A stretch of DNA of 64,000 nt from Beroe forskalii (taxonomy: Eukaryota; Ctenophora; Nuda; Beroida; Beroidae), in assembly GCA_011033025.1 (NCBI GenBank), contig WFMF01000623.1, positions 24,128-88,127 on the forward strand, read 5' to 3'. This document shows positions 967-52,716 of this stretch, piece after piece; position 1 is the stretch's first letter, and each line of letters opens with the position of its first letter. The notes beneath the pieces are model-generated. The model was not told the origin of the DNA, searched no databases, and was given only the letters and a program-made list of their open reading frames with translations. The position numbers and the translations under genes are program-made.

Positions 967-2828
967 ATTTATTCTGCTTGTCCGGCACCTCCGCCACGGA
1001 ACCGGAGTAGAACACCCCGGGGGCTTCCGTGCTGTTGTACTCGGCGAGGACCTTCAGTCCGATCACCAGCTTCTCGTGCTTGTAATTCCTCACTTCGATA
1101 ACCTGGGGCACCACAGGCATGTTACTAAGGGTGGGAATAACTTGGGGGAATAATCTGGGGGGCACAGACATGTTACATAGGGTGGGAATAACCTTGGGGG
1201 GCACAGACATGTTATACAGGGTGGGTTATTGAGTTAGGTATTGGGTGAACAGTTAAGTCTATGAATGACATCTTCTGACCGTCTGAGATTGATTACCACA
1301 ACTGTATTCTGGTGGCAGTCTGTTGCTCAATGAGGCTCTTAAATGATTATTTATTGAGTATCCCAGGAATTTCAAAATCCCCAAAACTCCACGAAATCCA
1401 GCAATTTTAGACCTCTACGTCCGTACAAATGTCTGCTTTTGTCAGATCCTGCTCAGACTGCTCAGACTGCTCACTGCCCAGGTTTGCTAAAATAAAGTTA
1501 CCTGCTTTCTAGCAACGAGTTTCTCATCAAAGATATCATCAAATTTGATGAGCACAGGCCGTTGATTATCTGGTAAATAGGCATGGCCCAATAACCACTG
1601 CCACCCATGATGCTTTACTAGTACTCTTGACACTGAAATGTTTTTGAAGTTTTTAAAAATTAGAATACAATCAAGCAAAATTTCATGAATATGAATTTAC
1701 TAATTATCAAATTCAATGATGATACTTGGAAATGAAAGTGATATGAATTGGATAAGTATGAAAGTTGTGATCATACCTACCTATTTGTCAACTAAGTAAC
1801 AAATCATGAACATAATGCAATTGGAACACTGTATATTACCGACTGTTACTCACAAGGTAGTTGTATCAAATAATCTTTTTTAGACAATATGCTGCCATCC
1901 ACAAATCTGTCTGAAATCTGAGATCATAAGATAATAGTATATTTGTGTAAGAATTTAGTAAGCTATGAAAGTTAAGAGGGGGGGGGGGTCATAGGCCGAT
2001 TTTCAATTAATTGCTGCTTCTGAAAGAGTATAACACAACATGACGTTATTTATTTCCAAATAGTGAATTTGTGTCGTGCTTGTAGTTACAGTCATGTGCA
2101 TGTGCGAACTTCCATTGTAATTAGGTGAAAATGAACTTTAATACCTTTATTATAACGCGCAAATTTCGATGTAGGCCCTTGAAACTTATTAGTTATGTTC
2201 AAGGCTAGAAAAAGAAAACCAAACTTGCATCAAACCGATTTTGATTTACACTTTTTGAGCGAAAATAACAATTTTCAAATTTGACCACAGGCTAAAAAAT
2301 TGTAAAAAATAGTGATAACCAAATTTCAAATTGGATCTTTTCACTGCCTAAGCCGAAATCAAAAATTGACTCAATGCAAAGCTGTGCAAAGTTAATTTTT
2401 ATGCGTTATCAAGTTTCAAGGGCAAACCTACAGATGGCTGACATTCTATACTTAGGGAATCAACTGGAACTGAAATCAATCTCAAGTCCTCAGTACCCAG
2501 CCCCTTCAAATTTCAGAAGTTGATCGACCTAGAAAGTCCCAATATGTTTATATTATATTATAGCAGTGATAATTTAACATCCAATTTCTGTCAGTCAATT
2601 CTTACTGAAAGAAATGAATTGACAGTCATTATCTACTTCAGCTTGATTCATGCATCATGATTCAAGTTTGTTTTGAGAACTCATTGGATTTACCTGAAGT
2701 ATCTGACTTTCACATTCTGAAAGACAGGCAAAGAGTTTTTTCTGTATCCTCTCAATATTCTCTATCCTTGTTTTGATCATCTCAATAACTGGATCAGAAT
2801 ATGTAACCATAGTCTTAGGAGGTTGCAT
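967..2828 (-). CDS. SETDB1: SETDB1-like histone H3K9 methyltransferase, partial (tudor region)
   Basis: Three exons are visible: about 2694-2828 (possible start ATG at 2828), 1502-1632 and 967-1102. The first encodes a charged helical segment (SDPVIEMIKTRIENIERIQK). The other two splice in frame to a tudor-like stretch containing GWQWLLGHAYLPDNQRP, IKFDDIFDEKLVARKQ, then GLKVLAEY and GSVAEVPDKQNK. The last two resemble the second tudor domain of SETDB1, where 'VxAKY' and 'GIVAETPNxKNK' are typical. SETDB1 family proteins silence chromatin by trimethylating H3K9; their tudor domains lie N-terminal to the MBD and SET domains. Those domains are not in the window, so enzymatic function is inferred from family resemblance only. 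The join between the first exon and the tudor exons is not proven, and exons may be missing between them. Another tudor protein is possible. Confidence 0.58.
1088..1225. repeat. Echo copies of the tudor exon acceptor
   Basis: The acceptor edge of the exon ending at 1102 (plus-strand text GATAACCTGGGGCACC) is followed by two diverged copies built of GGTGGGAATAACTTGGGGG and GGCACAGACATGTTA blocks, with a period near 45 bases. The copies reproduce the GGTTATYCCC-like exon start beyond the real splice site. Confidence 0.55.
2145..2440. repeat. Short inverted-repeat element (MITE-like)
   Basis: TGTAGGCCCTTGAAACTT near 2170 and AAGTTTCAAGGGCAAACCTAC near 2413 are inverted copies enclosing about 230 AT-rich bases. 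No coding capacity. It lies in the presumed intron of the SETDB1-like gene. Confidence 0.45.
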
Positions 2829-3093
2829 AATGAAAAAGATGCTGAAATGGGGGGGGGAACAACCTCCTCAGCTTTGATGCTTTAATGGATGTGTAAATCA
2901 GCAATGAGGATTTAATTCAAAGGGGTTTAAAGGGTTACAGCCCCATGTGAAACTCCTATGTGCACAGCTTTTCCATGCACTGCAATGTCATGGCAGCTCC
3001 CTACCTGTCATGAACAGGAAGTGCCGTTAAAGATTGGGCCACACATGGAAAAGCCACACACACATATGAGCTCGACATGCCCCTGTAAGACTA

Positions 3094-4039
3094 CAGGGTG
3101 CGCCAAAAGTCTTTTCCCCTTTTACTTTTTTGATCATTCGAAAAATTCCGCAGATATTTTGATTCTGTAAAAAGTTTCTTTAAATACAACCAAAGAATGG
3201 CGGATTCTGAGATTTTTGGGTTGCTATGACGTCCCTAGCAACCACACGAGTTCCCATAGCAACCGACCTAAAAATTGAAGATTATTGGCATTTTTGACAT
3301 AAATCTAGACCAAATTTGCCTATTTGATTGGTCATCATACAGGATAGATATTTCGATTCTGTGAAATTTTTTAGTGATCATAACCAGTCAATGCTGAATT
3401 CTGAGATTTTCAGATTGCTTTGACTTCCATAGCAACCACACAAGTTTCCATAGCAACCGGGCCTAAAATTCAAGGATTTTCACAAAAATTAGCCCCAAAC
3501 TCCACCCAAGGAGACTACTTCGAACATGCCCTGAATCCCTTTTGAGCTAAATTCACTGTATTTGATGATTTTGTATTGTTTACTTCCATTTCCATCATCA
3601 ATAGAATTGAAATAAATGGCCGTTAGTGAGTTTATTTTTTTAAAGACGCCCAGATTCTTCCATTTTCAGCCCGGTTGCTATGGAGACTCGTGTGGTTGCT
3701 ATGAAAGTCAGAGCAAGCTGAAAATCTTAGAATTTATCGTTGACTGTTTATGATCACTGAAACTATTGATAAAATCGAAGTATCTATCCTGTATGATGAC
3801 CAATCAAAAGAGAAAATGTGGTCTAGATCTATATGTCAAAAATGCCAAAAATCTTCAATTTTTAGGTCGGTTGCTATGGGAACTCGTGTGGTTGCTAGGG
3901 ACGTCATAGTAACCTATAAATCTCAGAATCTGCCATTCTCTGGTTATATTTAAAGAAAGTTTTTACAGAATCGAAATATCTGGCGTATTTTTCGAATAAT
4001 CAAAAAAGTAAAAGGGGACAAGACTTTTGGCGCACCCTG
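3094..4039. mobile_element. Mariner-like foldback element, copy 1
   Basis: Ends are CAGGGTGCGCCAAAAGTCTT and its inverse, flanked by TA on both sides, as in Tc1/mariner-type insertions. The whole 946 bases fold back: the left half (GTTGCTATGACGTCCCTAGC, CCATAGCAACCGACC) is repeated inverted in the right half. No transposase frame; non-autonomous. The open frames inside are by-products of the palindrome. Two further copies lie at 14871 and 61977. Confidence 0.85.
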
Positions 4040-4439
4040 TAATTGGGATAATTTTTTTTCACTTGTGTTCAGTTTTGATGTTCATGTGGTAAGCTGACAA
4101 TCCCCCCTACCAGACAAAAACTTGAAGAAACTTTCGAAACTTGAAGAAAAAAACCAAAAATATTATAATAAACTAGATTCAATTAGCAAATTTTGGAGAA
4201 AAATTCCCCAGGTCAAAAATCCACTTTGCTACACTGATGGGAGTATGTGGACATCACTGATCCCAACTGCAATCCCTGCTGAACCCTAAATCCCTGCTGA
4301 AAAACTAAATTACATGTGCACCAAATCAATCAACTTCATTTGATTAACTGCTTCACATAGAAAATCCTTAATCTAGTGAGGAAATAACAATATTTTGTTA
4401 CAATAGTAGTGTGTGGGTTGGATTTGGCATTTATTCCCA

Positions 4440-4660: not shown

Positions 4661-4799
4661 CCATTAACTGTGTCAATGATCAATCTAATAACATCAAACG
4701 AGGCCCATACAGTGCATTTGTTTAATTAACCTGGACATCAATATATAGCACAGATAACCTAATCATGATATTAACGAAGCTTGAAATGCTGGGTGAGGA

Positions 4800-6892: not shown

Positions 6893-9658
6893 CTAATAAA
6901 CTCCAGACCCAAGGATGAAGAACCTGCTTTCCTCCCTTCGGATCCACTTTAATAACTTATCAATGTTATTCAGAGCCACAGGACGCGTTACAAACGGTGA
7001 GAAAGTACAGTAGATCTCAGCGTTATTCATCACATAACCCACCATGGCTTCTCTCCCGTCCACATCGTAATATATCGCTAGTTTGTGGTCAGGTTGGTGC
7101 AGTTTGTCGTACACCAGACAGTACTTCGCGTGGAGGTGTTTCCTGTCTTCCTCGGCCGTGTACGGAGCTGTGTACTCCGGACATACGATCTGTGCGGAGC
7201 TCTGGCTTTTGTAGATGAAGTGCCGGAGGTGCGGGATCTTGGTGTCCGCGCACACGAAGGGCGTGGCCAGCACCCCCTCCAACTTTTCCAGGGTTTTCTG
7301 CGCTGTCATCTGCTCCACAATCCTCTGCTTGCACTCAATAATCGTGATATGTTGCTCCCGCTCATTGGTAATCAGCACCAAACTAATATCCTGAGTCTCG
7401 GAGATATAGGAATCATGCACGTAGAGATACCCTCCATCATTAAAATCAGGCAGACAGCAGGGCGCCCACTTCTCCCCATGTCCCCGGGTACTCCCTGTCT
7501 GCACATAGTTCATGAGCAAATGCAGGTCAGCTGGGGTGATCACGTACTGTTTAGGCCGGACTACTGCTATGATCTGTCGTTCGTAGAGCAGGATAGCGAA
7601 TACTAACTCAGGACACCGGTTGGAGAGGAGGATAGAGGCGATCTCGTTACCGGAGAGCGGACGGAAGGGGCAGGCACCGCACGGAGGAGACCAGGAAACT
7701 CACCTCCTCCTCTACGAATCCGATGATGCCTTTGAAGAACTTGGGCAGGCCGGTGAGTTGGCGACGCAGATCGTAGCTCTGTCGGTTCTTGAATAGCCGA
7801 GCCATGTGGGACTGGGTGAGGAAGAATATAGCCTGGTTTGTAACGTACCTGAGCTGGCGTCCTAACTGCTCCTCACTCTCGTCAGGGTGAGCCACCGCAG
7901 CCAGAACCAGCGGCGAGTGGCACCTGGAAACGGGGGTCAGACTGTCGGAGTGGGGGGGGGGGGAGTGGCACCTGATGATTGTTTAGGTAACACTAGGGGA
8001 CAGTGGCACCTGATGGTTAAAACTAACTTTACCGACATGGAATGATCTGTACTGTCTTACTGTGGTTGGTAGATAAAAATATTCAGAAGTCTAATACCTA
8101 GAAATACAATTATTTCAATAATTGCCTATATAGGACTCCTATTCCTTTCAAAATAATTCGAACAATGATATTTTAAAAATGATTGCACACTAAACAAGTA
8201 ACCAATTTTTTGCACCCCTGGGGTGTTTCCAATCTAACCTGAAGACGAAGAGCCTATCGCTGGTCCTGATGCACTGCAGTTCATCCTGATTATCCTGAAC
8301 ACAGCTGAGCAGGGCTTGCATGACCCCGAACAGTCCTACGATGTTCTCTTCCTTCCCGAACCTGCTGTAGATGGGCTTCCCAGCCTCGCTGAAGATGAAC
8401 ACGTGTTTCTGATCCGTGTACCACTCTGGCGGGTACTCCTGTGAGAGGAGGGGTGAGAGCGGAATTAAAGAGGCAAGAAGAAAGGGATGATGGAAGTGAT
8501 GGCTGGGGAAAAGATTTTAGTTCAATTTTCGAGGACGGAGGGATAGACAAATAAATGAGAAGCTCGATTGAATGGGAGGGATGAATTACTGAACTCTGAA
8601 ATGAACAAGTCACCTTTATCTCGCATTCGAATGACTCCTCTGCAGCTGGGACTTGTGTTGTCGACACGTCGTCATCACTTTCTCCTGATGAAGTAAATGT
8701 TTAGAATATGTGCTCAATTTTAATCAAGGAGATTTCTAGAGGCACAAGAAAAATATTCGTAAATCTTATTGATCACACTAAAACTAGTCTCAGTGAAGCC
8801 AATCAATTAATGCATGACTCAAAATTGTAAAGTCCCCCGACATACCAGGTGAGACTAGAGGTAAGCTCGTAGAATCAGTCCTTGGAGCGAGCTCCAGAGC
8901 TGCTCCAGGTTCAGGCTCTGTGGCATAAGACCCCTGAACCACCACTCCTCCGTCTGTCACTACGGGCAGGTTATCATCTGTTTCAGAGGAGGATTCAGGG
9001 AGGAACTCCTTGTGGGGAATCACCGGAGACACCTGGGATTGGAAAAACCTTTGAGTGAAAACCAGGAATAAGGGCTTGCCTCTTTTTGGTCGCAAAACAA
9101 AGCAAAATATACATCAATCAATCCATAATTATATCAATTTCCTGTCATTGGCTGTTACAGCTGATGGAATAGAAGTAAAACCTTCCGAAAACAACGTACC
9201 GTGATGATGTCATCATTGTCCTCCACCACTACTTTCTCCTCGTCTATACTCAGCGTACTGTCGTTCAGAGACCGGGTCAGCGAGCTGATGGGGCGGGGGG
9301 AGAGGGCTAGTCCGGGGGGCACCACCCCATTCTCAATCGAGCTCTCCAGGGAGGAGTCAGACAAATCATGATCGATTCTCTTAGGAGACTTCATCAGAGC
9401 AGCAGCCCCACTTTTTACAGGGTTCACAGCGTAGTCCGACGCATTGCTTCGCGGGCGGACTGGTGGGCTGGTTGTTTCGGGACGGGATTCAGCGTTGAGG
9501 CGCAGCCGAGGTACATCATCTACCTCCGCATTTTGCGGACGGATATCATCTAACTCAGCATTTTGCGGAGGGATGTCAATTAACTGGGCATCTTGCGGAG
9601 GGTCAGTGCTGTTTTCAGCACTAGTCAGCGAGTATTCACTTTCAGCTGCATCACCCAT
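6893..9658 (-). CDS. MON1: MON1, vacuolar fusion protein (Rab7 GEF subunit)
   Basis: Five exons: 9200-9658 (start ATG at 9658), 8846-9032, 8614-8684, 8239-8438 and 6893-7923; phases agree at every junction. The first 250 or so residues are acidic, low-complexity and contain an imperfect PQNAELDDI-type repeat. The conserved region begins at EYPPEWYTDQKHVFIFSEAG, followed by IVGLFGVMQALLSC, then HSPLVLAAVAHPDESEEQLG and, in the last exon, YVITPADLHLLMNY and LLKWIRREESRFFI. These are the longin-type blocks of MON1. MON1 pairs with CCZ1 to activate Rab7 in endosome-to-lysosome maturation. Within the last exon the frame shifts by one base near 7646-7665: RCLPLPSALR runs into TAA, while the homologous text continues as GNEIASILLSN in another frame. 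Since both flanks are well conserved, a sequence error is the simplest reading. Expected length is about 650 residues. It is the downstream neighbour of selenophosphate synthetase on the same strand. Confidence 0.88.
7905..8015. repeat. Echo copies of a MON1 exon acceptor
   Basis: The edge of the last MON1 exon (plus text CGAGTGGCACCTGG, exon start at 7923) recurs as GGAGTGGCACCTGATG near 7962 and GACAGTGGCACCTGATGG near 8000, both inside the intron. A run of 13 G separates them. Each copy carries a CAG/G acceptor in minus orientation. Confidence 0.6.
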
Positions 9659-10240: not shown

Positions 10241-11775
10241 TCATTTATCTTTCGAAGTCTTGGACCCAGCCACGACATCCCCAATAATCCACGCAGTGCC
10301 CCCTTCCTTCCTCATCTCCTCCACAAAGTTATCCGCATCCTCCTTTCCCAAACACACCAACAACCCCCCTGATGTCTCTGACGAGGTGCCCTCCAGAAGT
10401 CTGAAGTTTCTGCCTCCCTTCTCCACCAGCTGCTTACACACCGCGTTAAATCCACTAAACACCGGCAGGGTGTGGATGTTGAAGTCCACATCAGCTTCTT
10501 GGAACTCAGCCAAGTTTCGAGAATGTCCCAGAATTCCGAACCCTGTGACATCAGTAGCAGCGTGAGCGTGGTGTTTGTGCATGAGCCGCGCAGCAGCTAG
10601 GTTTAGCGTTGTCATGGAGATGGTAGCGTCGTTGTAACCCTTGACAACAGCCTCAGGGGTGATGAGCTCCTTGGCAATGTTCCAGGAGGGGGTTTCCAAT
10701 GTCATCCACTGGTGCAGATTAACTGCTACCTGGGTTCCAATAGGTTTAGTCAACACGATCTTATCTCCAGCCACGGCTTTGTTTGGCATGATAAACTCAT
10801 CCTTAGCACACACAGAAGTAGCCACCCCACCTATAATCATCCAGGGGTTAACCACGGTCTGTCCCCCATTAATTGACACCTTCGCCTCCGCAGCCAGGTC
10901 TCTGAACCCCTCCAGTATCATGGGGATCACCACCTTTCTCTGGTCATTGGAGAGATCTCTAGAGACTCCCAAGAGTAGTAACATGTTGTCCACATCACAT
11001 ACTCCCATGGCGTACAAGTCACTCAGTACGTTAGCACACGCTATCTTACCTGGAGTAGGTGTTGTCAGTCAGGAAAACAATGCTTGTAGTATTCCTTTGA
11101 AGAGTGACAACACGATAGCCCAAATAATGATGCTTGATTAAAATTGTTGACCTTTCACTTCATATTTTTGAGAAAAAAAAAATTCTTCATAAATCTATGA
11201 ATGATATTCAATGGGTTACAAAACATTTAAATATTCAACGCATTACCCATGAGGTAGGGATCATTGATGAGAGGGTAGAAGAAGTCCGTGGTTTCCACCA
11301 GAGAGATACCAGGGTGCCGAGTGGGCAGAACACAGGAGTCCAGACCTATCCCAATGCTGTCTCCAGACCCTCCCAGGAGGGGGGAGGTGGGTTTCAGGGA
11401 TTGCAAGTAGAGGAGCAGCTCTGCTTGCGGTACCTGGGGCGAGAGGTGGGGTGGTACATGGAAAACAAGACTTTAAAGTATGGGGAGAGCAAATTTTCAA
11501 GAATGAAGCAATATAGATCGTCCCATCCTAAATTAGTACCACCGCAAAAATATCAAGTAGAAGGGGGGGGGGGGGGTTAAAAACCTTTTCTTAAAAGTGT
11601 CATGTACATTCAGATTGGAAGTTTCGATGAAAAAATTAGGTAAAAAGGCTATTTAGGCTGAAGCCTTGCACACTACCTTACACCCTCATCCTTTGAGTTT
11701 TGTGAAGTCCGTGAGGCGGAAGTCTTTATCCAGACCATGGTCCTCCGGCCGGAACTCCGACCTTCCAACCATTGC
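10241..11775 (-). CDS. SEPHS2: Selenophosphate synthetase, selenocysteine-containing (SEPHS2/SelD type)
   Basis: Three coding exons: 11677-11775 (start ATG at 11772 just after a CAG acceptor, so a 5' UTR exon probably lies upstream), 11247-11433 and 10241-11049; phases agree. The product is 363 residues if TGA at 11686-11688 is read as selenocysteine (residue 29). Context is [16 protein letters not shown], the SelD active-site motif, with Lys32 conserved. Then come [57 protein letters not shown] and [12 protein letters not shown], which build the ATP-binding AIRS-type fold. The enzyme makes selenophosphate from selenide and ATP for selenocysteine tRNA synthesis. A SECIS-like fold lies in the 3' UTR (9957-10022), which supports the UGA reading over a stop. 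The organism therefore probably uses selenoproteins. Confidence 0.93.
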
Positions 11776-11830
11776 CTACAGGGGGAGAGAGGGGTGATTA
11801 GTTGCCTACAGGGCGAGAGGGGGCAATTAG
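11766..11830. repeat. Duplicated acceptor upstream of the selenophosphate synthetase start
   Basis: ATTGCCTACAGGGGGAGAGA at 11771 is repeated as GTTGCCTACAGGGCGAGAGG at about 11809. Each copy offers a CTGTAG acceptor on the minus strand, so two alternative acceptors precede the start codon. Confidence 0.6.
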
Positions 11831-13521: not shown

Positions 13522-13840
13522 CCTACCTAGAAAAAAAGGAGAATTTAAGTAAACAAGTAAATAAATTTTTCTAAAAAGGATGTCTAGAAATTTGATGATA
13601 TTATGATTGAAAATGAATTTGAAGAAAAATTAGGTATACGTAAGGAATCAGCAATAACAATTTGAATATTTGATAGTCGATAATTCTTGTCAGTTATCAT
13701 CACAAGCTCACACAACAACTGGAACTTGTAAACAATCGGGGAGATCTAGCGAGTTCAAACGGACATACATATCCCAATCTATATCCAGACAGAGGTCATC
13801 TCGGTTTCATAAGAGCTTCTCACAATGAACTCTTCACTTC

Positions 13841-13951
13841 ATGCCCACTTGAGGCACCTTGTCTCTGAATGTGTCTCACGCCCACTTGAGACACCTTGTC
13901 TCAGAATGTGTCTCACGCCCACTTAAGACACCTTGTCTCTGAATGCGTCTG
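13841..13951 (-). repeat. 37-bp tandem triplication of the ZNHIT1 stop-codon region
   Basis: Three copies at 13841-13877, 13878-13914 and 13915-13951 differ at only a few positions. The copy nearest the gene is coding: it contains the last codons HSETRCLKWA and the stop. The other two lie in the 3' flank and still spell the same C-terminal residues in frame with their own unit. Confidence 0.9.
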
Positions 13952-14574
13952 ACCGCACCTGATAGTACAGTACTTAGTACCGCACACAATGCACTTGTAG
14001 GTTGACTTGTATCCGCAAACAGAGCAGAAGTTCCTGGCAGGGAGGCGGGAGGTGGGTACTTTAGCGGAGTGGTAGGTGGCTGCGTCAGAAGAGTTAACAG
14101 GGTCTTCCAACATCACCTGTGGGAGGGAGGAGAGGTTTATATGACCTGAGAGAGAGGGGAGGAGGGGTTAGGTGACAGAAGAGTTAACAGGGTCTTCCAA
14201 CATCACCTGAGAGAGGTTATTAGGCGATGTAGTAGAGGGTCGAAACTCGAAATACAAAAAGTTCAGAACTCTCAGTCGACCCCTGCTTCATAAGAATTAT
14301 CGGGCAAATGGATAAAATTTAAAACTTGCAATGTTGAAGTTAATGAATTAGTCAATTTTGACACCTGGAAAGATTTGGGAAATCTCTTCTTAGCGATTTT
14401 CTTCTTTTTCTTTGCAGCCGGTTTCTCCTCAAAAGCAGGAAGTTTAGCAGTGCTGATGTTCAGGTCCTCCTGAAAGTTATCCTTGTCCAGGGATTCAATG
14501 AACCGTTTTAGGCGGAGTTTCCTCTGGGCTGTGTCAAGGATGGTTCGAGTCCGTTGTGCTCTCTTTTCTACCAT
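13913..14574 (-). CDS. ZNHIT1: ZNHIT1, HIT zinc-finger protein of the SRCAP complex
   Basis: Two exons, 14365-14574 (start ATG at 14574) and 13913-14116, join in phase to 137 residues; family members are usually about 150. The N-terminus (VEKRAQRTRTILDTAQRKLR) and LPAFEEKPAAKKKKK region match the family, as does FPKSFQ before the splice. The C-terminal half is the HIT zinc finger: FCSVCG, YKCIVCGTKYC, RCGQTH and ETRCLKW supply the paired Cys/His ligands. ZNHIT1 (p18Hamlet, yeast Vps71/Swc6) is a subunit of the SRCAP/SWR1 remodeller that deposits H2A.Z. Both ends of exon 2 are duplicated in flanking DNA (13841-13951 and 14173-14211). Confidence 0.93.
14080..14211. repeat. Echo copy of the ZNHIT1 exon 2 acceptor
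   Basis: The exon 2 start (plus text AGAAGAGTTAACAGGGTCTT then CCAACATCACCTG, edge at 14116) is repeated almost exactly at 14176-14208 inside the intron, including the CAG acceptor. The spacer is a GGGAGGAG-rich tract. Confidence 0.8.
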
Positions 14575-14870: not shown

Positions 14871-15547
14871 CAGGGTGCGCCAAAAGTCTTGTCCCCTTTT
14901 ACTTTTTTGATTATTCGAAAAATACAGCAGATATTTCGATTCTGTAAAAACTTTCTTCAAATATAACCAAAGAATGGCGGATTCTGAGATTTATAGGTTA
15001 CTATGACGTCCCTAGCAACCACACGAGTTCCCATAGCAACCGACCTAAAAATTGAAGATTTTTGGCATTTTTGACATATAGATCTAGACCACATTTTCTC
15101 TTTTGATTGGTCATCATACAGGATAGATAGTTCGATTCAATCAATAGTTTCAGTGATCATAAACAGTCAACGATGAATTCTGAGAGTGTCAGCTTGCTAT
15201 GACTTTCATAGCAACCACACGAGTCTCCATAGCAACCGGGCTCAAAATGGGAGAAAAATTGAACTCGCTAACTGCCATTTATTTCAATTCTATTGATGAT
15301 GGAAATGATAGTAAACAAAACAAAATCATCAAATACAGTGAATCTAGCTCAGAAGGGGTTCAATGCATGCTCCAAGTAGTCTCCTTGGGTGGAATTTGGG
15401 GCTAATTTAAGTAAAAATCCTTCAATTTTAGGCCCGGTTGCTATGGAAACTTGTGTGGTTGCTATGGAAGTCAAAGAATCGAAATATCTGCAGAATTTTT
15501 CAAATGATCAAAAAAGTAAAAGGGGACAAGACTTTTGGCGCACCCTG
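14871..15547. mobile_element. Mariner-like foldback element, copy 2
   Basis: Same CAGGGTGCGCCAAAAGTCTT ends and TA flanks as the copy at 3094, but about 680 bases long; the right half has an internal deletion. It lies between ZNHIT1 and the 3' end of ZGRF1. Non-coding. Confidence 0.85.
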
Positions 15548-15819: not shown

Positions 15820-18800
15820 TCATCTGAGCTTGTTCATGACGTCATCCAAGGTAAGGACCACCCCTCGGTCAGCACAGATCTGAATGATCGTTCCCCACAG
15901 CTGATTCGTGGATAACATTTGGATATTGCCTGAAATTTCATGATCTACAAGAATGGTTTCATATTTAAGGGAAAGGCACAATTATGCTTGAGGGTACAAG
16001 GAGTTTAGGATTGAGGGCAAAGGCCGGAACTCGGTTATTTCTTGGAAATTTCATATTATGTCAGTACACACTAATTGATACTCATTTTGATCCTCAAACT
16101 TAGTGAAAAATCCAAAGCCTACTAACCCAGAATAATGAGGTGTTCCTTGGCCCGGGTTAACGCGACGTTGACCCGCTTAGGACAGTCTGCAAACCCAATC
16201 CTTGTTGAGCGGACACAGGACAAGATAATGACGGGTTTCTCAGCTCCCTGCACAGCGTCCACAGTCGAAATCTTGAGAGCTTACAGGGGTTAATACAGAG
16301 GTTACGGGGGTTACAGAGGTTACAAGAGATACCACGTCCACAGTGGATATCTAGGCGTTACATGGGTAACAGATGCTACAAGAAGTAATCCTTCTACAGC
16401 GTCCGCTGCGGATATCAGGGGGTTTATAGGGGTTGTATGTCTTCTAAAGGTTTGTTCATTCAACCGTAAAATTTATGTCGCATTAAAACTCGTTGCGTTT
16501 TTTCTTCACTCAGGTAAAACTGTTTTCACCCATTATAGCTATTCTCGCCATGAAATTAAGTTCTCACATAGTTGCATCCAGGAAAAATTCCGCTCATATC
16601 GAATCCTTTCCAGTTCGGATGAAATTTCATTATTTTTGTACGTTTTGTTTCACCGCGCGGGCTGGCGGGTGTTGTGAAGATGGAGAAAATCACGAATAAA
16701 AGGATGATTCTAAGCGTAATATTTCTGAAATTAACGTAATAATTGGGATGTGCTCCAAGACACGCATCTCAAAGGGCCAATGATATGCGGCGTATTTCTT
16801 AAAAATTAGATTTTGTTGATATTTTAGCCTATTATAATATTTGTATGTATTATCGATCATAATTATTATTGTTTATATTATTGCCTATATTATGTAAAGT
16901 CACGGGAAAACCTACTTTCAATTATCAAGACCTCGTTCTAAGCTGCTATAAAGGAGCTACTGCTACTAATCGTTGCTTTCTTGAATTATGCGTTTGCAAA
17001 TTTTATTTCGTCTCGTATTTTTTATCCTCCCCGCAACACTATCTTCTGCTTACGGTGAGATAGTAACTGAGCATTCAGACAATAAATTGGCCCGAGTCCC
17101 GGGACATAAATTTAACAGATATCTGCACTTCTGTTCTGTGGCCGAGAGCACATTCTGCATCGTGGTTTGAAGATTTTACTTAAATATACGAAAGATTTGT
17201 TGCACAATTGATACTGAGTTCACACCTATTTGTACATTTCAGAATGGGGAACTACCACATCTAGTCCTTTTTTCAATGTCTTCCCCACATCAAATTCTGC
17301 TACCGAAGGTGAGATGCTTTTTCAATGTCTTCCCCACATCACTATCTGCTACCGAAGGTGAGATCTGGAAAACTAGGCGTGCTAATCATTCAATCAATGA
17401 ATATGACTCTTTTACAACCCCTCTCCTCTATCTATAAAGCCTGGAACATCACCTTTTGTACTAATATTTCAGAAGAAGAGTGGGGTTCTCCCGTAGAAAG
17501 CTTTGACTATGTGGAAGTACAAGAACCACTGTTCACTTTGCAATTTAAAACAGTTTGGACGATGAAAATGCCGGTAGATCCACGAATATGGATCATATTC
17601 TACGACAAATTCTTCAACGCAGCAGGAGCGTTTATAGTCTGGAAGATGAACACCACTCCGCAATTCCAGCTGGGTTATTGCTCCAGCTATTGGCAAGCCT
17701 TCCCCGTGGAAATCCTAGAGGGAAACACTAAAATGTGGACCATCGCCCGAACCGCAGAGGGCTTCGTGGTGTTCTGTGATGGTGTCAAATTGTGGGAAGG
17801 GGCGTTTGAGACAGCCTGCAATCGGAGGTTTAATAACGATAGGGAAACTTGGAGGACTTACTGGGACAAAGATGTTGCTTATGTGATGTTCCATAGTACG
17901 GATACTGCTTCAACAGCTTATCATGTCCCGATCAAAGGTGAGAATTCGAAATGAAGTCACAGGCAAATTTATTTGAGTAGCTGGGGAGCACCTATTGTGC
18001 TTATATAAACACTCGGCTTTCCCCTCGTGCAATTAGGCACAATATTTGCACTCGGCTACCCCTCGTGCAATTATTTTCATCATCGCATTTCTAGGAATCC
18101 TATCACATCACAGTATATATAATTTACCCGCCCTCCCAGAGAAGTGCCCAGCAGGGGAGCACCTATCGTTTACAGACTACGGAGTAGAGGTTTGCGTGGA
18201 GTGTCCCCTCAACACCTACAATAACAGGGAGGAAGGGGATTGTGTGAACCCTGCCCTGAGGGAATGTGGGCTCCACAGGGGTCAACCTACTGCTCCAAAT
18301 GTGGTGAAATTCTTTTGAATTTTATTTAGAAAGTTATAATTTTATTCCAACAGCCATACAGCTTATCGACAGGATTCGAAGGATCCCAAATGTGGAACAT
18401 AACAGACTATGTCACAATCTCATCCTTCAAAATGCTGAGATTCAAGATAAATAGGCATTTTCCAGAGTCAATGGTACACAGTATATTCTTTTGAATCATG
18501 ATTTGTTTCAGAAGTCGAGTCATTTCCTAGAGAGGAAAACAATGAGCGTTGCTATAGAACTGATAAATGCGAACGTAAGCTTGATACTTTGATGATAGTA
18601 TTCAGAGTAACTTTTACTGCATTTCTTTTTCTTCCAAACTTAGTGTGCTATTCGTGGTGGCAAATGCTTTCGTTGATTGAACAAAAATTACTCAATATCT
18701 TTTACCAGAATCTTGTATCTTGTTCCAGTATAACAGAGTCAAGAGCTTGAATAAACAAATCACTCTTATCATTGAATTTTGTGCGCCTCCTTTCCAAAGA

Positions 18801-21800: not shown

Positions 21801-24800
21801 AGAAATGCTTAAAACGGGTGTTTTCAAACTCGTATAAAATGCAATGCGTCTCTACTAGGGCACGCTCTGGGACTCCGACACACGGACTATCTGGACGCGG
21901 TCATGGCGTCCGGGTACAAGGAGGACGCTTTTGATGTGAAGGACTTGCATAGGAAGGACAAGGAAGCCCTCATAAAGCAGTACCCGGGGGAGGGGAGAGG
22001 TAGGAGCCAATCAGAGGGCAGGATTGGTAGCGTGCTGCGTGATGATTGGTTGAACCGTTGAATATATTCAGTTTCACAGACCTAGATAATCAATCGTCCT
22101 TTTCTAAGGATTCAAGTCTATTTTTTCTCCTTATCTTAAATAATGGTAATTATGAATCGAAAAACACGATCGAACAATCTTTTCAGGCAGTGTAACGGAG
22201 TTGAGTATGGGCATGTCATTAGGAGTTCAGTCTCACTACTACAGGCCCCGACTACCACTGCCCAGGGAGTGTATTAGCACCATCGACGCTGGCTTCCTTT
22301 CAGGTATAGACATTATACGAGTTCAGGTAATAAACATCCTTTCAGGTATTTACATGACATTAGAACTATTGTTTTTAATTTACAACTTGTGATGTGCAAC
22401 ATTTCTTTCCATTCAGTTTGAGAAGTGCCCTTTGAGGATTCTATTTATTCATTTTCATACCCATTCAATTTCTTTTGGAGCGCTTGTTGATAGGCATTTG
22501 GTAACAATTATTAAATCAATCAATTGAGTGATCAATCAATCAATTAACCACCGCTCCTCGCAGGAGGTAAGATCTACCTGATCTCCAACACATTCGTATG
22601 GCAATACCACGCCGCCACGCTAGCCAGACTGGGGCCTCCAAAACGGCTCTCTGATGTGTTCGCAGGGTGGACTTATAGGACACGAGCAGCTTTTACAGGT
22701 GGGTAGGCTGATAGCATTAGCATAAGATAACTAACTCATGTCATAGTACATGGTTATGTGTCTAGCTCGGCCAACTCTGTGACTCTGTGAGCAGATTAAT
22801 TTTCAGAAGTTTAGCATCGGCAATACATTTTCCACGACTTTTTTATGGCAGATATACCATTTGACCATTGTTAACAATACTTCTTTCAGTGGGTCCAAGG
22901 CTGTTCCTGATCAGCAATGAAGCAGTGTACGTATACAAACAGTTCGGTTCGGTATTCATTACCGACAAGATCTCGACACCGAACGAGTTCCTGAACGGTG
23001 GAGGCAGCACTTACGAGTTTCCTCCTATCAAAAGCGCTTTTACCATCCCTGATGAGAGCAAAGGGTACATAACGATACTAGGTCGGTATTAGTTAAGTCG
23101 AGATCGTAAAACATTTTTATTTATTATAGAAAGTACTTTTAATGCTCTTCAAGAACTCTGACATTCTGAAATATTGCAATTCAGTAAGTTACGTAGAAAC
23201 TTTCTGCTTCATTATCCAATTTAATTTGACGATGCCTATTATAATGTCTAAAATGTACCTATGTCTCAAATTCCAATCTCCTCACACTAACAAAACATCG
23301 TCCATGTGTGATGTGACATCATATTATTACATCTCAGTGATTAGCAAGAGCGAGTATTACAAACTGCACTGGTTCAAGAAGAAGTATGTTAAGAAAGTGG
23401 AGAAGAGTGGGGATGGGACAGCTCTTATTGGAAGGGCCTTTGGGGGTGAGTAGGAGCGGATTTTAAAAATCCATCAGAATATCGGATAGATTTGCCTCTG
23501 ATATGTTGTCATTGCTACTTGAGATTTTGAGACAACCATTTTTCATACTGTACAATTTCATAGAACTAATATAATCATTAATCAGCGTTAGAATTCGTTC
23601 ATAACTCTTGCGCCTTCACTAGGTAAGGAGTTTAATGCCGCCATTCCTTACATGAGGAAAACAAAGGATGGCGAGTTCTTGGAGCTGTACAAATTCGATA
23701 GGGAGGTAAAATATATTATTAATTAAGCTTTTTCATTTCTATTTAAAATTTTTTATGAGCTTCTAAAAATTTCGCTGCCTTGGCTCTGCAGATAGTGATA
23801 AAGCCGGATACCAAATTTGCGTTTAAATTAATATTCCTACAAATCTCATCCTATTTCAGTGGGTGAAATCAGTGCAGATCTTTCCGGGAGAAGCCCGGTC
23901 TAAGGACCCAGCGGAGGAAGTTTCCAAAGCTTTCAACATCGACTCGTGGTGTCCTTCTAGCCTCAGCCAGAAATCTTAGCTCATTTTGCAGAGTGGTGTA
24001 CTTCTAGCCTCAGCCAGAAATCTTAGCTCATGTTGACATGCTGCTGAGAGCTTCAAAGATCGATTTTACTGAATATCATAAACTTTGACTCCTTGAAACT
24101 CCTCTAAATTAAACAAGACTTATCAATGACAATAGGACAGAAGTTGAGCTGCAAAAAAACTTGATCAGAGAATAATAAGTTTTCGCGCATGATAGGACAG
24201 GTAATTTCTTGGCGCTTATTCCGGCCTCTTTTGTCAAGTTTTAAAGCTTGAATTAGCAAAGGGCTCAAATTATGCGCGGCCATGTATACTTTATACCCTT
24301 CTCGCATGAAATTTGTGCAATAACAATAGAACAATTACTTTCATAAAGTTTTTGCATGAACAGAAAATTTATACCATTCATATTATGCAATGAATATTAA
24401 GATTTTTAATGAAATTGCAGAAATCTCGTTTTTAATTTGTTTCCAATTTCTATTTTCTACCTTGAGAGCTTTGGAGTTCGGCAGTTCCTTCTTCAGCAGC
24501 GATTCTTGGCCCCTGTACAGGGTAATGACGGCAATATCTTCCTTCTTAACTTTCTTTTGAGACAGCAGGGTATCAAGGAGCTCTGATATAGCTCTAACCT
24601 GGGCAGTGTGGAATGAAAGAATCTGAGAAGTGTAGTATCTATATAGATTTCAATGGGGTGAATAGAGCTTCAAAGAACACTTCAAGTGAACTTTTAATTA
24701 GTACCGCGACTATGTCCAACCATGTCCCGACTATTCCCAAACTATTCCTCAACCATGCCCCAACTACTCAACTACTCAACTAGGCCCAAATTAAAGCAAA

Positions 24801-27800
24801 CTAACCTCAGCACTGTTGGAGCAGCTATCCCCAAAGGAAGTTTCAGTCCCAGCAACACTGATGAACGTGAGGGGAGGTATGGGCAGGAGTGAAGTGATGG
24901 CGTCATCAGTCTCGTTACCATTAGCAACGCCACTGGTCACGTGCTCCTTGGTCACGTGATATTTCGTCGCATGACCATCCTTCAGCTCGCCCGAATAGAA
25001 CAAGGAGTTTGAAATGCTGGAGATGGCAGAGGGACATCTGTATTGCGTGCTGTGAGAATGGTGGTTATTGTCTGATCGGCTCCGCATTGGTTTAGACCCA
25101 CACCTTCCGGGCTGCGGGCCAAACCGGTTAAATGGCGTGGCTCGCACCCTCGGAAGTATGCCAAAATGACTCGATAGGCGGGGTGCGTGCCCAATGTCTA
25201 TGAATCTTAGAATCTACAAGTCCCAAAAGCACCTACTTTAGCATCACAGTAGGGTATCCGAGCTTGATGAGTCTATCAAACAGTGTCTGTTCTAGCCCCG
25301 GTGCCCACTCCCCCCTGACATGCTGTGTTTCTACAGTGGGAGGCAGTTGCTGGGGGTCTCCAACTAGCAGCAGGTGCTTACAGCTGGCGTAGATCAGGGG
25401 GAGTAAGGAGGAGGGTTCTGTTATCTGAGAGGGATATCAGAGGGAGTAATGAGGAGGGTTCTGTGATCTGAGAGGGATATCAGAGGGAGTAAGGAGGAGG
25501 GTTCTGTTATCTGTGAGGGATATCAGAGGGAGTAGGGAGGAGGGTTCTGTGATCTGAGAGGGATATCAGAGGGAGTAAGGAGGAGGGTTCTGTGATCTGA
25601 GAGGGATATCAGAGGGATTAGGGAGGAGGGTTCTGTGATCTGAGAGGGATATCAGAGGGAGTAATGGGGAGGGTTCTGTGATCTGAGAGGGATATCAGAG
25701 GGAGTAAGGAGGAGGGTTCTGTGATCTGAGGGGGATATCAGAGGGAGTAATGAGGAGGGTTCTGTGATCTGAGAGGGATATCAGAGGGAGTAATGAGGAG
25801 GGTTCTGTGATCTGAGAGGATATCAGGGGAGTAATGAGGAGGTTCTGTGATCTGAGAGGATATCAGAGGAGTAGGGAGGAGGGTTCTGTGATCTGAGAGG
25901 GATATCAGAGGGAGTAATGAGGAGGGTTCTGTGATCTGAGGGGATATCAGAGGAGTAAGGAGGAGGGTTCTGTGATCTGAGGGGATATCAGAGGGAGTAA
26001 TGAGGAGGGTTCTGTGATCTGAGAGGGATATCAGAGGGAGTAATGAGGAGGGTTCTGTGATCTGAGAGGGATATCAGAGGGAGTAGGGAGGAGGGTTCTG
26101 TGATCTGAGAGGGATTTCAGAGGGAGTAATGAGGAGGGTTCTGTGATCTGAGAGGGATATCAGAGGGAGTAGAGAGGAGGGTTCTGTTATCTGAGAGGGA
26201 TATCAGAGGGAGTAAGGAGGAGGGTTCTGTGATCTGAGAGGGGTGGGAGGGGGTAATGAGGAGGGTTCTGTGATCTGAGGGGGATATCAGAGGGAGTAAG
26301 GAGGAGGGTTCTGTGATCTGAGAGGGATATCAGAGGGAGTAATGAGGAGGGTTCTGTGATCTGAGAGGGATATCAGAGGGAGTAATGAGGAGGGTTCTGT
26401 GATCTGAGAGGGATATCAGAGGGAGTAATGAGGAGGGTTCTGTGATCTGAGAGGGATATCAGAGGGAGTAGGGAGGAGGGTTCTGTGATCTGAGAGGGAT
26501 ATCAGAGGGAGTAATGAGGAGGGTTCTGTGATCTGAGAGGATATCAGAGGGAGTAATGAGGAGGGTTCTGTGATCTGAAGGGGATATCAGAGGGGGTAAT
26601 GAGGAGGGTTCTGTGATCTGAGAGGGATATCAGAGGGAGTAATGAGGAGGGTTCTGTGATCTGAGAAGGATATCAGAGGGAGTAGGGAGGAGGGTTCTGT
26701 GATCTGAGAGGGATATCAGAGGGGGTAATGAGGAGGGTTCTGTGATCTGAGAGGGATATCAGAGGGAGTAAGGAGGAGGGTTCTGTGATCTGAGAGGGAT
26801 ATCAGAGGGAGTAATGAGGAGGGTTCTGTGATCTGAGAGGGATATCAGAGGGAGTAGGGAGGAGGGTTCTGTGATCTGGAGAGGGATATCGAGGGAGTAT
26901 GAGGAGGGTTCTGTGATCTGAGAGGGATATCAGAGGGAGTAATGAGGAGGGTTCTGTGATCTGAGAGGGATATCAGTAAGGGGAGGGGTTCTGTGATCTG
27001 AGAGGGATATCAGAGGGAGTAAGGAGGAGGGTTCTGATCTGAGAGGATCAGAGGGAGGGATATCTGGGAGAGGGAGGAGGAGGGTTCTGTGATCTGAGAG
27101 TAATGAGGAGGGTTCTGTGATCTGAGAGGGATATCAGAGGGAGTAAGGAGGAGGGTTCTGTGATCTGAGAGGGATATCAGAGGGAGTAATGAGGAGGGTT
27201 CTGTGATCTGAGAGGGATATCAGAGGGAGTAAGGAGGAGGGTTCTGTGATCTGAGAGGGATATCAGAGGGAGTAAGGAGGAGGGTTCTGTGATCTGAGAG
27301 GGATATCAGAGGGAGTAATGAGGAGGGTTCTGTGATCTGAGAGGATATCAGAGGGTAATGAGGAGGGTTCTGTGATCTGAGAGGATATCAGAGGGAGTAA
27401 GGAGGAGGGTTCTGTGATCTGAGAGGGATATCAGAGGGTTCTGGGAGTATGAGGAGGGTTCTGTGATCTGAGAGGGATATCAGAGGGAGTAAGGAGGATA
27501 TCAGTAATGAGGGGAGTAAGGAGGAGGGTTCTGTGATCTGAGAGGGATATCAGAGGGAGTAAGGAGGAGGGTTCTGTGATCTGAGAGGGATATCAGAGGG
27601 AGTAATGAGGAGGGTTCTGTGATCTGAGAGGGATATCAGAGGGAGTAATGAGGAGGGTTCTGTGATCTGAGAGGGATATCAGAGGGAGTAAGGAGGAGGG
27701 TTCTGTGATCTGATCTGAGAGGATATCAGAGGGAGTAATGAGAGGGTAAGGAGGAGGGTTCTGTGATCTGAGAGGGATATCAGAGGGAGTAATGAGGAGG

Positions 27801-30800
27801 GTTCTGTGATCTGAGAGGGATATCAGAGGGAGTAAGGAGGGTTCTGTGATCTGAGAGGGATATCAGAGGGAGTAATGAGGAGGGTTCTGTGATCTGAGAG
27901 GGATATCAGAGGGAGTAAGGAGGAGGGTTCTGTGATCTGAGAGGGATATCAGAGGGAGTAATGAGGAGGGTTCTGTGATCTGAGAGGGATATCAGAGGGA
28001 GTAAGGAGGAGGGTTCTGTGATCTGAGAGGGATATCAGAGGGGAGTAATGAGGAGGGTTCTGTGATCTGAGAGGGATATCAGAGGAGTAATGAGGAGGGT
28101 TCTGTGATCTGAGAGGGATATCGAGGGAGTAAGGAGGAGGGTTCTGTGATCTGAGAGGGAGGGATATCAATCAGAGGGAGGAGGGTTCTGTGATCTGAGA
28201 GGGATATCAGAGGGGGTTATATTGACAGGGGGAGTACAATATGGGGGGGTATCATGACTATGACGTTTTATTGCCTGAATATTGACACTACATAACTGTG
28301 GAACTTGGAGTGGTCAGAGAGAAATAACTGGAAGCGAGGTAAGCATGCCACCCTATATCCTGCTCACCTGTGAGACCTCGTCAAACAGGACAATGTCGTG
28401 TCTTGAAACCCCTGGGGAGGAGGCACAGGTTGTTCCCACCACTTGGAATCTGTCCAAGATTCCACGTACCTGCTCCTAAAAGATTGCAAAGTTAATATTA
28501 TAAGGGGATTTGGTCTGTGACCACTGACCAGTCATCTGACACAACCTGGAAGAGTTGGCGATAATTCGGCAGACTACGGAAACGGGTGCCGACTTACCAC
28601 CAACCTTGTAAATATTTAGCTTGACTCCTGATCTATGTTTTTAACATTTGGTGCATTTTGGGAGCACAAAGGAGGCTTGCTTTCTTCTTCGAGATTACAA
28701 GGTGAATGAGGATTAAGGGGTTTGGTTGGGCCTATCACCAGTCGTCCGAGAGGATGTAGGTTGACAGAATCCTAAACGCACCCTACCCTCGGTCCATTTT
28801 GAGTAAATCAAAAATACTGACGCAGATTCACTGAAAGTGCGGAACTTGGTCATGCAGAAGCATGATCACTTGGGGTTCTCCTTATGTAAATTATCGAGAA
28901 GTAATCAATAATTAATTAAAAGGTAGTTTCATCATGAATTCCAAGAACTAAATCTTAATTAAATTTAAAGTTGGCGAATTACCATATTATAACAAACCAT
29001 TATTCTGTGAGAACAATGGAGAAACGGTTTGTTATTAATCAAATAATCAAATAGCGAAAAGTCATGAGGTGGGAACAATTGAAAGCATAATTCAAATCTG
29101 AACTATTCTACACACCAAATCTGAACGACTATAACAGTCAACAAGCACACACGTGGATTGCTATTTCTATTCCTCGTGTTGCTTCATTCAAACAATTTAT
29201 GTTCCGTCCTGCTAGAACCTACGGTTTCACCAACTGGAACCAAAGGAGACTTTTCTCGGATTGATGTTCGTATTCATATTGTCAAAATTTGCTAAATACG
29301 ATTTTATAATCCTACCTCTTATTGTAAAATCCCACATTTTCGAACCCCAAAAATTTCGATCGCCAGAATTGTCCCACATGAAGACATGAATATTTCTCGT
29401 AGCATATCGATCGCACATTGAATACCAATGACTTGTTTGACCAGGCGACAAACTATCTCCCAATGGAATTCTGGGCAATCTAACGCTTATAATTATTCCT
29501 GCAGGGTAACATTTCATCTGCACCCATGTCCCATTCACAACCTTTACATGATTCAAAGTCGTTTCCTCAGCATGCAAATTTCATCGGTTCCCGTCAGCAT
29601 TGAGAACCTTCCCATGATTCACTTAGAGTAATTCAGAGTCAGCGTGCGTTGCTTCAGCATGCAAGGGTGCATTATACCTCTACGTACAGGGCCTTGGGTA
29701 TCTTATTTAACAAATACCCATTTGCATTTATAAAAGAAAATCTAGCGTTGGAGACGGCGATCTGGAACGAGTAGCAAGATAGATTTAAAGGAAAATCCAA
29801 GCTCAGTGGATCATTAAAATACGCCGCACTGTCTTGCACGCGACCACTGGGAGAGGGGGTTTAATAAACTGCTGATGCATTGTTCTCATTGGCTCGATAT
29901 ATGTTCTGGGCAGATATAAATAATCATAGAGAGGCTCACTGAATAAATATGAGCAAGGGAAGAGGCTTGAGGAGGGATAACGAGGGAGTTTAATTTGTAA
30001 TTTACTGATTTAGTTTACGTGTTTAAGTCGCCCAAACTCATTCACACGGAAAATGCTGGTGTTTTTTGCGAACAGTCGACAGAAACTCAGAGCTAATAGC
30101 CTCGTTAGCTCAATTCACATGGAGAGATATGACGACTCCTATAATATGTAAAATATTTAAGATATGAAAGATCTTACATATCCCTGACTGTGAATTGCTA
30201 TTGAGGCTGTTAGGGTTGGATTTTATATCGACTGAATCACCAGGGAACTCTGGCATTTCCCAATACTTCCCAGCTTATAATCTCAGGAAGATAAGTTATA
30301 AAATGATCGCTCTAAAAATGTATTCTATTATATTTAAAGATTCTCAGATTCAACAATCTGGAAGTTATTTAGATTTTTCGAAGAATCATGTCTAGCGTTT
30401 TAATCCAGTGAAAATTTATTGTTAGAATGACAAATAGGCTAGGTTAGATTAAGATATATATATCATATTGGATACTAACTTCAAAGGAAGCAAACTTTTT
30501 GCCGAGATTGAGTTTGGAAGTCACCAGAATCCTGTGCTGAGACCCCTCAATAACACGCACCAGGATGAGGATCAGTACTGCCAACATGAAGCTCTTACCA
30601 GACCCAAACACTCCGTGAACGCAAAGCACAATAACTGGGAGCATGGGTCGGCGTCATGGGTTGGAGCAACATGGGTAGGGGACCAAAATAAAGGGAACGG
30701 GTTGGGATCATGGGTTGGGATAATGGGTTTGGATCATGGATTGAGATAATGGGTTGAGGCCATGGGTTGGGATCATGGTTTAGGGCCATGGGTTTGGGTT

Positions 30801-33800
30801 GGGATCATGGTTTAGGGTCATGGGTTGGGGTCATGGGTTGGGATCATGGGTTGGGATCATGAGTTGGGGTCATGGGTTGGAAGCTTGGGAAGCTTGGGTT
30901 GGGGTCATGGGTTGGGATCATGGAAACCTTTGATTAAATTCCATATCATTATACTGGTGGTGCTGCTTAATTAAACTTTCTAAACCTCATAATTTCGTGT
31001 TTAATCACCTGAAACTATTGCAATCAGCCGCAGTTATAGGTATCTCAAATCCTCCAATGCACTACCACGGCAATGATTGAATGGTAATTAATTATACCAG
31101 GGTTATGGTAATTAATATGCTAACGACATAACAATGGAGGAAGAAGGTGGGCAATTGTTCCAGGTAATTGGAATAGTTTTCTTGGTGAAGTAAGGTGTTT
31201 CATGAGGCCCCGACCTATGAATTTAAATATTCATAGCTTAGGTTTTACCGTTCATCTCATTAGCGCCTAGCGGCAATTTCTTATCTCTCACATTTTATCT
31301 TACATAGAAACTTGCCCACATACAAAACCAAAGAAACTAGCAGGCCTAGATTGATCGTCCCATGCTTTGCATATTAGACCACGACCTAGATTGATTGTCC
31401 CATGCTTTGCATATTAGACCACGACCTATATTGATTGTCCCTTGCTTTGCATATTAGACCATGCCTTAATTGGGTCCACGCCACATGCCATGTGCCTAAT
31501 TGGATCCGTGGTGAAGAATCTCATTACTTGACCTTTTTAAAATAGTGCAGTTACCGTTAGCGTGGAAGTAACACAAAGGCCAGCATTTCGGAGAAGCCCT
31601 GTGAATCTCATTACTTGACCTTTTCATGCGAATCATCAAACAGCGACTGCCACAGGCTATTCCAAAGCGCCTGTTGTTCATACTTAATTTATCACATCAT
31701 TAAACGTTTTCAAGTTGCTCCCTCCTAAGTGCAGTTAGTATTTTCAAGTTGCTCCCTCTAAGTGTAGTATTACTGTTAGTGGGTGACGAGTGGTTTAAGG
31801 TTTAAAGTTCAAAGGAAGGGGGCGTGTGCAGGGTGGGGGGAAGGGAAGAGAAGAGGTTTGGGAAGGGTGGTGGTAGAGATGAGGTCAGGGGACAAAGAGG
31901 TCCCCTTAACCGTGTAGTTGTAACTGTTAGAGAAGTTTTAAGTGGAGTTACCGTTGGAGAGGGAGTTCACGAAGGCTAGCACTGCCTCCTCTTGTTTCTC
32001 GTTGAGCTGGTACTCCCGACACATCGTCATACAAACATCCCCCACATTCTCCACTAGCGGTATAGACATGTCACTTGTAGGTAGCTCCAACCTGAAATAA
32101 TTAGGAGTTGTTGCCATGGTTACCAGTTTGTTGCCATGGTCACCATGGTCTGTTGCCATGGTCAACGGTATGTTGTCATGAGCTGAACATTAATTGTTGT
32201 TATTTCTTACATTCTAAATCTATATTTTCGCTCCATCGCACTAATCAGTAACCTGAAATTAGAATAGAGATACACCTAAAGCTAAAAGCTTGATGGCAGT
32301 GTGGATAACCATCGCATGGCTTGTTCTTGGAACACTGCAGCCGGTAACAGGATGTAAGTATATTTCTAAAACTTTATTTATTGACATTTGATGAGCTTCG
32401 CATTATTCGAATTCCTCGGAATTCAAAGAACCATAAATCGCGGCGATGTAGCAAGAAAATTAAAGTTTCCATCTGCCGTGATTTGATAATTAATAGACAT
32501 TAATAGTGTTTGTTTATAAGGAGGAGGAGAATGCACCAGTAATAATATGACCATTGGCCAATTGTTCCCAACAGAGCTCTTAGGATTTGAGAGGCTGCCA
32601 CCGCCTCTCGCGTCAGCGGAGGCTTGTGACCTGAGGATTTTGCGCTAAAAAACATTTTAACCCTCCCAATTCCAGGGAAGTACTTTGAAGGGGACTGCTC
32701 CGTTCTTTGCACCGCTGCACTCCCAGTACAGGACTACCTGCTCGTACAAGTACGATACAAGAGGAACGCTCCAGGAGAACAAACCGTCAAATTCTACACC
32801 CCTGTAAACAATCGAGGTATTTCAAACTTGCTCTCTGATTGGCTAACAGATCTCGACCAAGCCCTCTGATTGGTTGGGATATTAATTAAAGCTGCTCCTA
32901 TTGCAGTCACGTGACATCGTACTCAAGGTATTTTACTCTACAAAACCACAATACAGAGTTGCTGCCACCGTAATTTGTCATACCAATTGTTAGTAGTAAA
33001 ACAGCAGAAAGGGGGGGGGAAATTCCCGCTGACCGACAACTGCCCCCCTACTGATAACCTGGATGATGTAAAAGGTATAAATTCCATGCTTTTGAGAATT
33101 TTCAATCAAGATAATATTATGAAGAAATCTTCTTCATATCTCTGACATATTTTGATCACATGGAGATTTCTTCAGCTGACGACGATAATCACAAGATTTT
33201 CGAAAGCTTCTGATTACAATTCTCTCGTATCAGTTATTTCGTTTATAAACTTCAATCTCTTGAGTTCTTCACAATAATTTATGATCAATATCTCTGACAT
33301 TTGACACATTATGATAACACCAATACCTTCAGATACGCTGGAGGACTACATTAAGTTTTATGACAAATCGCCGCAACAAACCCGTATCGGACATGGGTCG
33401 GGGGCTTGTTACTATACAAGACAAGTTGTGGCCGGAAGCGGGGTATCCGGGGAGTTCGCTACTTGGCAGATCCTTCTAACACCCACTGAGATACATCTCA
33501 AAATCAACGGTATGGTACACAGATTAGTGAATGAGTATTATTAGCGGTATCATACCGGTTTGTGAATTATAAATAATCAAGAAATTGGAGGGGAATCTTG
33601 TGAATTGCGAATATTTGCAGTCAAATCACAAGAAAATCACTGAATTACGGACATCTGACACAGTTAATCAGTTGATATTCATATCAAATTCTCTAAACAG
33701 GGAATTATCTGAGGGGCGAGTCCTCGGATCCATTTGTACGGGACCTTAAATGGGACGATGATGCTCCCTCGTGTTGGCACGAACCGGCGAGTGTCAATAA

Positions 33801-52685: not shown

Positions 52686-52716
<31 letters not shown>

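Follow-up and report, generated by a model that had tools for sequence, protein, structure and literature searches.

The question raised by this 64,000-nucleotide stretch of DNA (contig WFMF01000623.1 of GenBank assembly GCA_011033025.1, positions 24,128 to 88,127, referred to below as the window) is why exon borders in one gene after another appear to be echoed in the adjoining non-coding sequence, and whether the borders themselves attract the copying. A preliminary description had reported short copies of splice sites and stop codons at eleven exon edges, and ascribed them to a recurring local duplication process with a bias for exon borders or, alternatively, to survival bias. The first 32 kb of the window are gene-dense and include a SETDB1-like gene, MON1, a SEPHS2-like gene, a long single-exon frame, ZNHIT1, a metalloprotease and ZGRF1; these names, which come from the preliminary description or from translations read against human proteins, are provisional. 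Tandem units do cross exon borders here, the same anatomy recurs at independent genes, edges as a whole carry no net excess of repeats, and exons are depleted of them. The structures are probably "mirage" minisatellites, the product of unbiased local tandem duplication together with selection that keeps exons clear.

The anatomy is best read in ZGRF1, on the minus strand, where a minisatellite of 2.8 kb (25393..28214) is built of 43-bp units that each contain a 3' splice site (CCTCTCAG) and the beginning of the exon. Each unit consists of 11 intron bases (ATCCCTCTCAG) and the first 32 exon bases, the exon sequence ITEPSSLLPLIYASCKHLLLVGD following CTCTCAG, and the true exon start at 25424 is simply the last unit of the array. 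Tandem Repeats Finder (TRF) gives a copy number of 66, and 58 units were recognised by our own scan; the AG is kept in 57 of these 58, and their median acceptor score equals that of the true site. As read, the array contains stops in all three frames, and the unit length is not a multiple of three.

ZNHIT1, also on the minus strand, is copied at two places. Its C-terminus and TGA stop codon (13913-13915) lie in a 37-bp unit present three times (13839..13950), and two of the three copies sit beyond the stop. The authentic unit at the exon-2 acceptor (14086..14126, boundary 14116) is matched, 90 bp upstream, by a decoy copy (14176..14216) that keeps CAG/GTGATG; the two are identical at 39 of 41 positions, the first 34 bp being without a difference. 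Read onward, the decoy acceptor runs through VMLEDPVNSSVT into a stop codon. The stretch 13780-14400 has no match beyond itself in the whole assembly, so that there is no second haplotype copy of it, and the dispersed near-identical copies expected of introner-like mobile introns were not found for ZNHIT1, the one locus searched for them. As the preliminary description had it, many copies retain a usable acceptor or donor motif, and the surplus copies are found on the non-coding side of the edge that they copy.

The eleven sites named in that description did not fare equally well. A clear local duplication is present at the place given in six, a real one is displaced in a seventh, three are weak and one is absent. 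In the SETDB1-like gene (minus strand) a 39-bp unit in about three copies with indels (1093..1225) takes in the acceptor, at boundary 1102/1103, and the start of the exon, and extends into the intron. A 22-bp copy with 30-bp spacing and a score of 16 (11772..11823, minus strand) covers the SEPHS2-like acceptor just before the ATG (boundary 11775). The same gene has, at 11686-11688 (minus strand), an in-frame TGA that would fit a selenocysteine codon, its context being KLKG-TGA-GCK. The metalloprotease, on the plus strand, has its final coding bases and stop codon in a 47-bp unit of about two copies (23946..24035, score 37). At 17020, the site named for its first exon, the local-repeat scan gave no match; a real duplication, two 49-bp units with a score of 38 (17269..17364), spans the exon-2 donor CGAAG/GTGAG at boundary 17308. 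The weak sites are the MON1 acceptor (7915..8015, minus strand, boundary 7923), where a core, AGTGGCACCTG, of only 12-14 bp occurs three times; the donor of a middle metalloprotease exon (22295..22349, plus strand), where TCCTTTCAGGTAT at donor 22304 has a second copy 42 bp further on, only 13 bp long; and the ZGRF1 site at 16271, which scores 12 and lies off the exon edge. At 31952 in ZGRF1 the local-repeat scan found no duplication. At a spacing of ≤120 the first 32.3 kb contain 27 events of score ≥12 and 22 of score ≥13, against means of 3.7 and 1.4 in 10 shuffles; since shuffles yield some events at these scores, the weak 12-14 bp sites are possible but none is convincing alone. With the complexity filter off, a tandem unit crosses an exon-intron boundary of the window at the acceptors 1102, 11775, 14116 and 25424 and at the donor 17308. 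The MON1 exon at 6896-7923 (minus strand) also shows, by eye, an apparent one-base frame change near 7650, which is either a sequencing error or a real change.

How ordinary such events are in this genome was judged from the assembly (216 Mb in 1134 contigs) with a local-repeat scan in which the sequence was matched against itself without gaps at spacings from 10 to 300 bases (scoring +1/-2, low complexity removed). The background sample comprised 25 stretches of 10 kb outside the window, drawn from contigs numbered up to 564 and each placed so as to end some 15 kb upstream of a match to an arbitrary 12-mer. Window and sample together (314 kb) hold 200 events at a score of ≥16 against none in one dinucleotide-preserving shuffle, and the recurring local duplication process that had been proposed is thereby borne out. 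The 250 kb outside the window contribute 170 of these events, and copies make up 13.8% of their bases; the window, with 30 events in 64 kb, is therefore not enriched. Arrays of at least three copies account for 52,899 of the 314,000 bases, about a sixth, and were masked. A self-trained exon finder served only for splice-site weights and for rough exons in the window; before masking it mistook minisatellite arrays for exons, a fault that masking cured.

Independent loci were obtained from stretches around exons matched by PF00271, PF00227 and PF00004, picked blind to repeats (40 stretches measuring roughly 1 kb, and a further 20 with 361 bases each), with exon borders set from the Pfam match, the open frame and splice-site scores. 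The curated set holds 59 loci with 62 acceptors and 46 donors, L076, which is homologous to L075, being left out. Four of the last 20 loci (L067, L074, L077 and L078) were kept without a trusted acceptor, several other acceptors of that batch (e.g. L068, L072) depend on low scores or on manual reading, and within the batch a local repeat of score ≥12 was seen only in L075 and L076. At a score of 16 and a spacing of ≤300 the set has 22 events, of which six span an acceptor (L034, L037, L041, L043, L057 and L075), one a donor (L033) and one a start codon (L051). In L041 the acceptor and some 60 nt of exon (GLDIPSVSCVINY...) recur in six 77-bp units of an array that continues past the fetched stretch; L034 has an acceptor array of about eight units, L043 five acceptor units of 84 bp, L037 two acceptor copies spaced at 74 bp, and a PSMB5-like exon (L057) four 25-bp units with CCTCCCAG/GTTATTGAG. 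The donor of L033 is present eight times. In L051 (1-1151, minus strand, 5' end) a PSMA2-like start codon lies in three 67-bp units; both upstream start copies open short frames, MSER and MSERYSFSLTNHPYPS, each ending at a stop, and these are possible upstream open reading frames. L075 and L076 are copies of one exon on two contigs, alleles or paralogues, with 91 of 97 exon bases identical; a 40-bp acceptor repeat has five units in L075 and two in L076, which suggests that such arrays change length.

Recurrence is not the same as preference, and the claimed bias for exon borders in general is not supported. Among 72 window edges set by hand through reading in the first 32.3 kb, seven fall within copies at score ≥14 without the complexity filter (acceptors 4/33, donors 1/28, starts 0/5, stops 2/6), against 13.2% of the bases in that region; with the filter on, which removes the edge at 25424, the figures are 6/72 and 10.1%. 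Copies in this part of the window do not cluster at edges. At the Pfam-anchored loci a placement test was used in which the same events are placed at random and only an end unit is allowed to enter an exon. Events spanning an acceptor or a donor number seven against 7.21 expected (p 0.66), while wholly exonic events number none in 12,483 sampled exon bases against 7.5 expected at the non-coding rate. Because of these two results we regard acceptors and donors together as hit at about the rate of intron DNA and the exons as kept clear, so that survival bias, the alternative offered in the preliminary description, is the better reading.

Two earlier comparisons were set aside. A coverage test on a first set of 52 anchors, with edges placed automatically and a spacing of ≤140, put 6/49 acceptors and 0/47 donors inside a copy, against 6.3% of non-coding points, and was dropped as a poor yardstick because only the terminal unit of an array can contain an exon edge. 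A first placement test gave nine acceptors against 4.0 expected (p 0.0055, and below 0.001 at a spacing of ≤140), which we judged inflated since the acceptors set automatically at L035 and L051 proved incorrect, L076 duplicates L075 and the L041 array had been split; the L043 acceptor had already been placed by hand at 386 when that test was made. In the curation that followed, the L035 acceptor was moved to 470, L051 was recast as a start codon, L076 was dropped and the pieces of the L041 array were counted as a single event.

On this explanation, units of about 25-90 bp would be duplicated in tandem throughout a repeat-rich genome, presumably by slippage or unequal exchange; some of the duplications would grow into arrays, and some would happen to span an exon edge. 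Expansion and homogenisation of arrays are suggested by the uniformity of the ZGRF1 units and by the different lengths of L075 and L076. Edge copies may persist because the terminal unit, the one joined to the exon, would keep working, with splicing proceeding correctly past the decoys, and the surplus copies would end up on the non-coding side, in an intron, the 3' untranslated region or the 5' leader. Wholly exonic duplications would mostly be purged by selection, and as a consequence of both, what survives at edges would come to look like an echo of a splice site, a stop or a start.

Several observations weigh against so plain a process. Within the first MON1 coding exon a 30-bp in-frame repeat of about three copies (9508-9602, minus strand) has survived. 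At a spacing of ≤140 the six acceptors compare with 2.46 expected (p 0.018; a second setting at ≤140 gives p 0.016), and at a score of 20 and spacing of 300 with 3.19 (p 0.063). Donors tend to a deficit, with p ranging from 0.03 to 0.11 over the settings (e.g. none against 2.61 expected, p 0.03; one against 3.46, p 0.08, at the main setting of score 16 and spacing ≤300). Finally, 33 of 118 array units outside the window exceed an acceptor score of 5, as compared with 11% in reversed sequence, 15% in shuffles and 13.5% in unique DNA; with related arrays removed the count is 27 against 10 of 101 (p 0.0015), and there is no donor excess. An acceptor surplus, a donor shortfall and acceptor-like units are not predicted by a uniform process, and they lend themselves to a different account in which 3' splice sites are the preferred birth places of minisatellites, a C-rich polypyrimidine tract followed by CAG/G promoting slippage or breakage. 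We consider this account doubtful. Six of 62 acceptors against one of 46 donors speaks for it, but Fisher's test gives p 0.23, the placement test gives p 0.13 at the main setting (six acceptors against 3.75 expected), and elsewhere with spacing up to 300 the values run from about 0.06 to 0.19 (0.19 at score 14, 0.055 at score 25). The motif excess without related arrays has p 0.09, 0.04 and 0.07 at thresholds 4, 6 and 7, several settings and thresholds were tried, and a general effect of C-rich CAGG motifs unrelated to splicing would look identical. The preference for acceptors over donors is thus suggestive only. The bolder form of the idea, that 3' splice sites nucleate minisatellites genome-wide, with the C-rich tract, CAG/G and the exon's first 10-60 nt being recopied upstream, seems to us unlikely. 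If it were true, about a tenth of introns (going by the 6/62 acceptors sampled) would end in duplicate acceptors, and the spliceosome would face as many as about 60 3' splice sites of nearly equal quality and have to choose the last, which is attached to the exon.

That AG or GT is kept in many copies might also mean that introns have been gained or splice sites renewed here, AG/GT-bearing duplications being retained as a source of new introns or exon ends; a similar model has been proposed for lancelet globin mirages (PMC3087553). The decoy of ZNHIT1, if used, would however meet a stop, the length of the ZGRF1 unit is not divisible by three and its array, as read, has stops in every frame, and there is no overall excess at edges, all of which makes the proposal very improbable. 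We give equally little credence to an artefact of assembly or of haplotype merging. An assembly of 1134 contigs, with one exon near-identical on two of them and an apparent frame break in MON1, might invite it, but the copies mostly differ by substitutions and small indels, the same anatomy is found in unrelated genes, and the sampled exons are spared, which is unlike what an artefact would do. Local duplication without preference, followed by selection on exons, remains the explanation that we favour.

Other repeats were seen in the course of this work. Very long tandem arrays occupy three of the background stretches (L008, L019 and L021), with 5722, 4051 and 5858 of 10,000 bases masked. The window has further minisatellites at 35633-36515 (a 48-bp unit in 18 copies) and 31345-31461 (a 40-bp unit in three). 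Three related repeat copies at 3096-4040, 14871-15550 and about 62000-62800 have inverted ends (CAGGGTGCGCCAAAAGTCTT...) and internal repeats of 194-196 bp; the element is probably a non-autonomous DNA transposon. A G-rich low-complexity block with strong skew and up to 75% GC extends over 52000-58500, and is bordered on both sides by TAGCCTCCA repeats (51488-51769 and 58608-58703).

Looking for a lancelet-derived fluorescent protein and for the GFP family gave no match in the assembly, a weak argument against a lancelet host given that neither search included a positive control. Should the host not be a lancelet and our reading be correct, mirages would be common outside the cephalochordates too, which is not described in the literature searched. 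Arrays of the ZGRF1 type offer a natural test of how 3' splice sites are chosen: a spliceosome taking the first good AG would err in ZGRF1, and choice from the exon side (exon definition) would let the last unit win. For annotators, mirages may lead to spurious exon starts and make assembly unstable. In the study of genome evolution, they would illustrate how plain tandem duplication and selection on exons can yield a seemingly purposeful pattern.

The phenomenon itself is already known. In the lancelet, tandem repeats spanning exon-intron boundaries were named "mirages", and two papers describe them in Adh3 and in the globins BflGb6 and BflGb9 (PMC3087553) and in troponin C and PGBD5 (PMC3902484). 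Units measure 10-72 bp in Adh3 and about 150-160 bp in the globins, BflGb6 haplotypes carry six and three of them, and they are reported there not to interfere with regular splicing, a role in intron gain being proposed (PMC3087553). Among the matches listed in our literature search, which reached few subscription journals, these two alone concern such mirages. The sites in the window match the lancelet anatomy: units span the boundary, both 3' and 5' boundaries are affected, AG or GT is often intact, and the number of units differs between homologous copies, as in L075 and L076. They differ in that ZGRF1 reaches about 60 units and that stop and start codons are copied as well; splicing past the decoys, reported as regular in the lancelet, is presumed here. 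Tandem repeats that modify human gene structure (PMC2812944) and intron gain through tandem genomic duplication of AG/GT segments (e.g. PMC4974935, PMC2891723) are related topics in the literature. As in the latter, the duplicated segment includes a potential splice site; the copies described here, by contrast, sit within existing introns or untranslated regions. A human IFI6 minisatellite, reportedly described by Turri in 1995, is said to have multiple donor sites; its unit also carries a splice site, although a donor rather than an acceptor, and one gene is involved. Set beside these systems, the window holds a real structure of a known kind in a duplication-rich genome, possibly with a modest preference for 3' splice sites.

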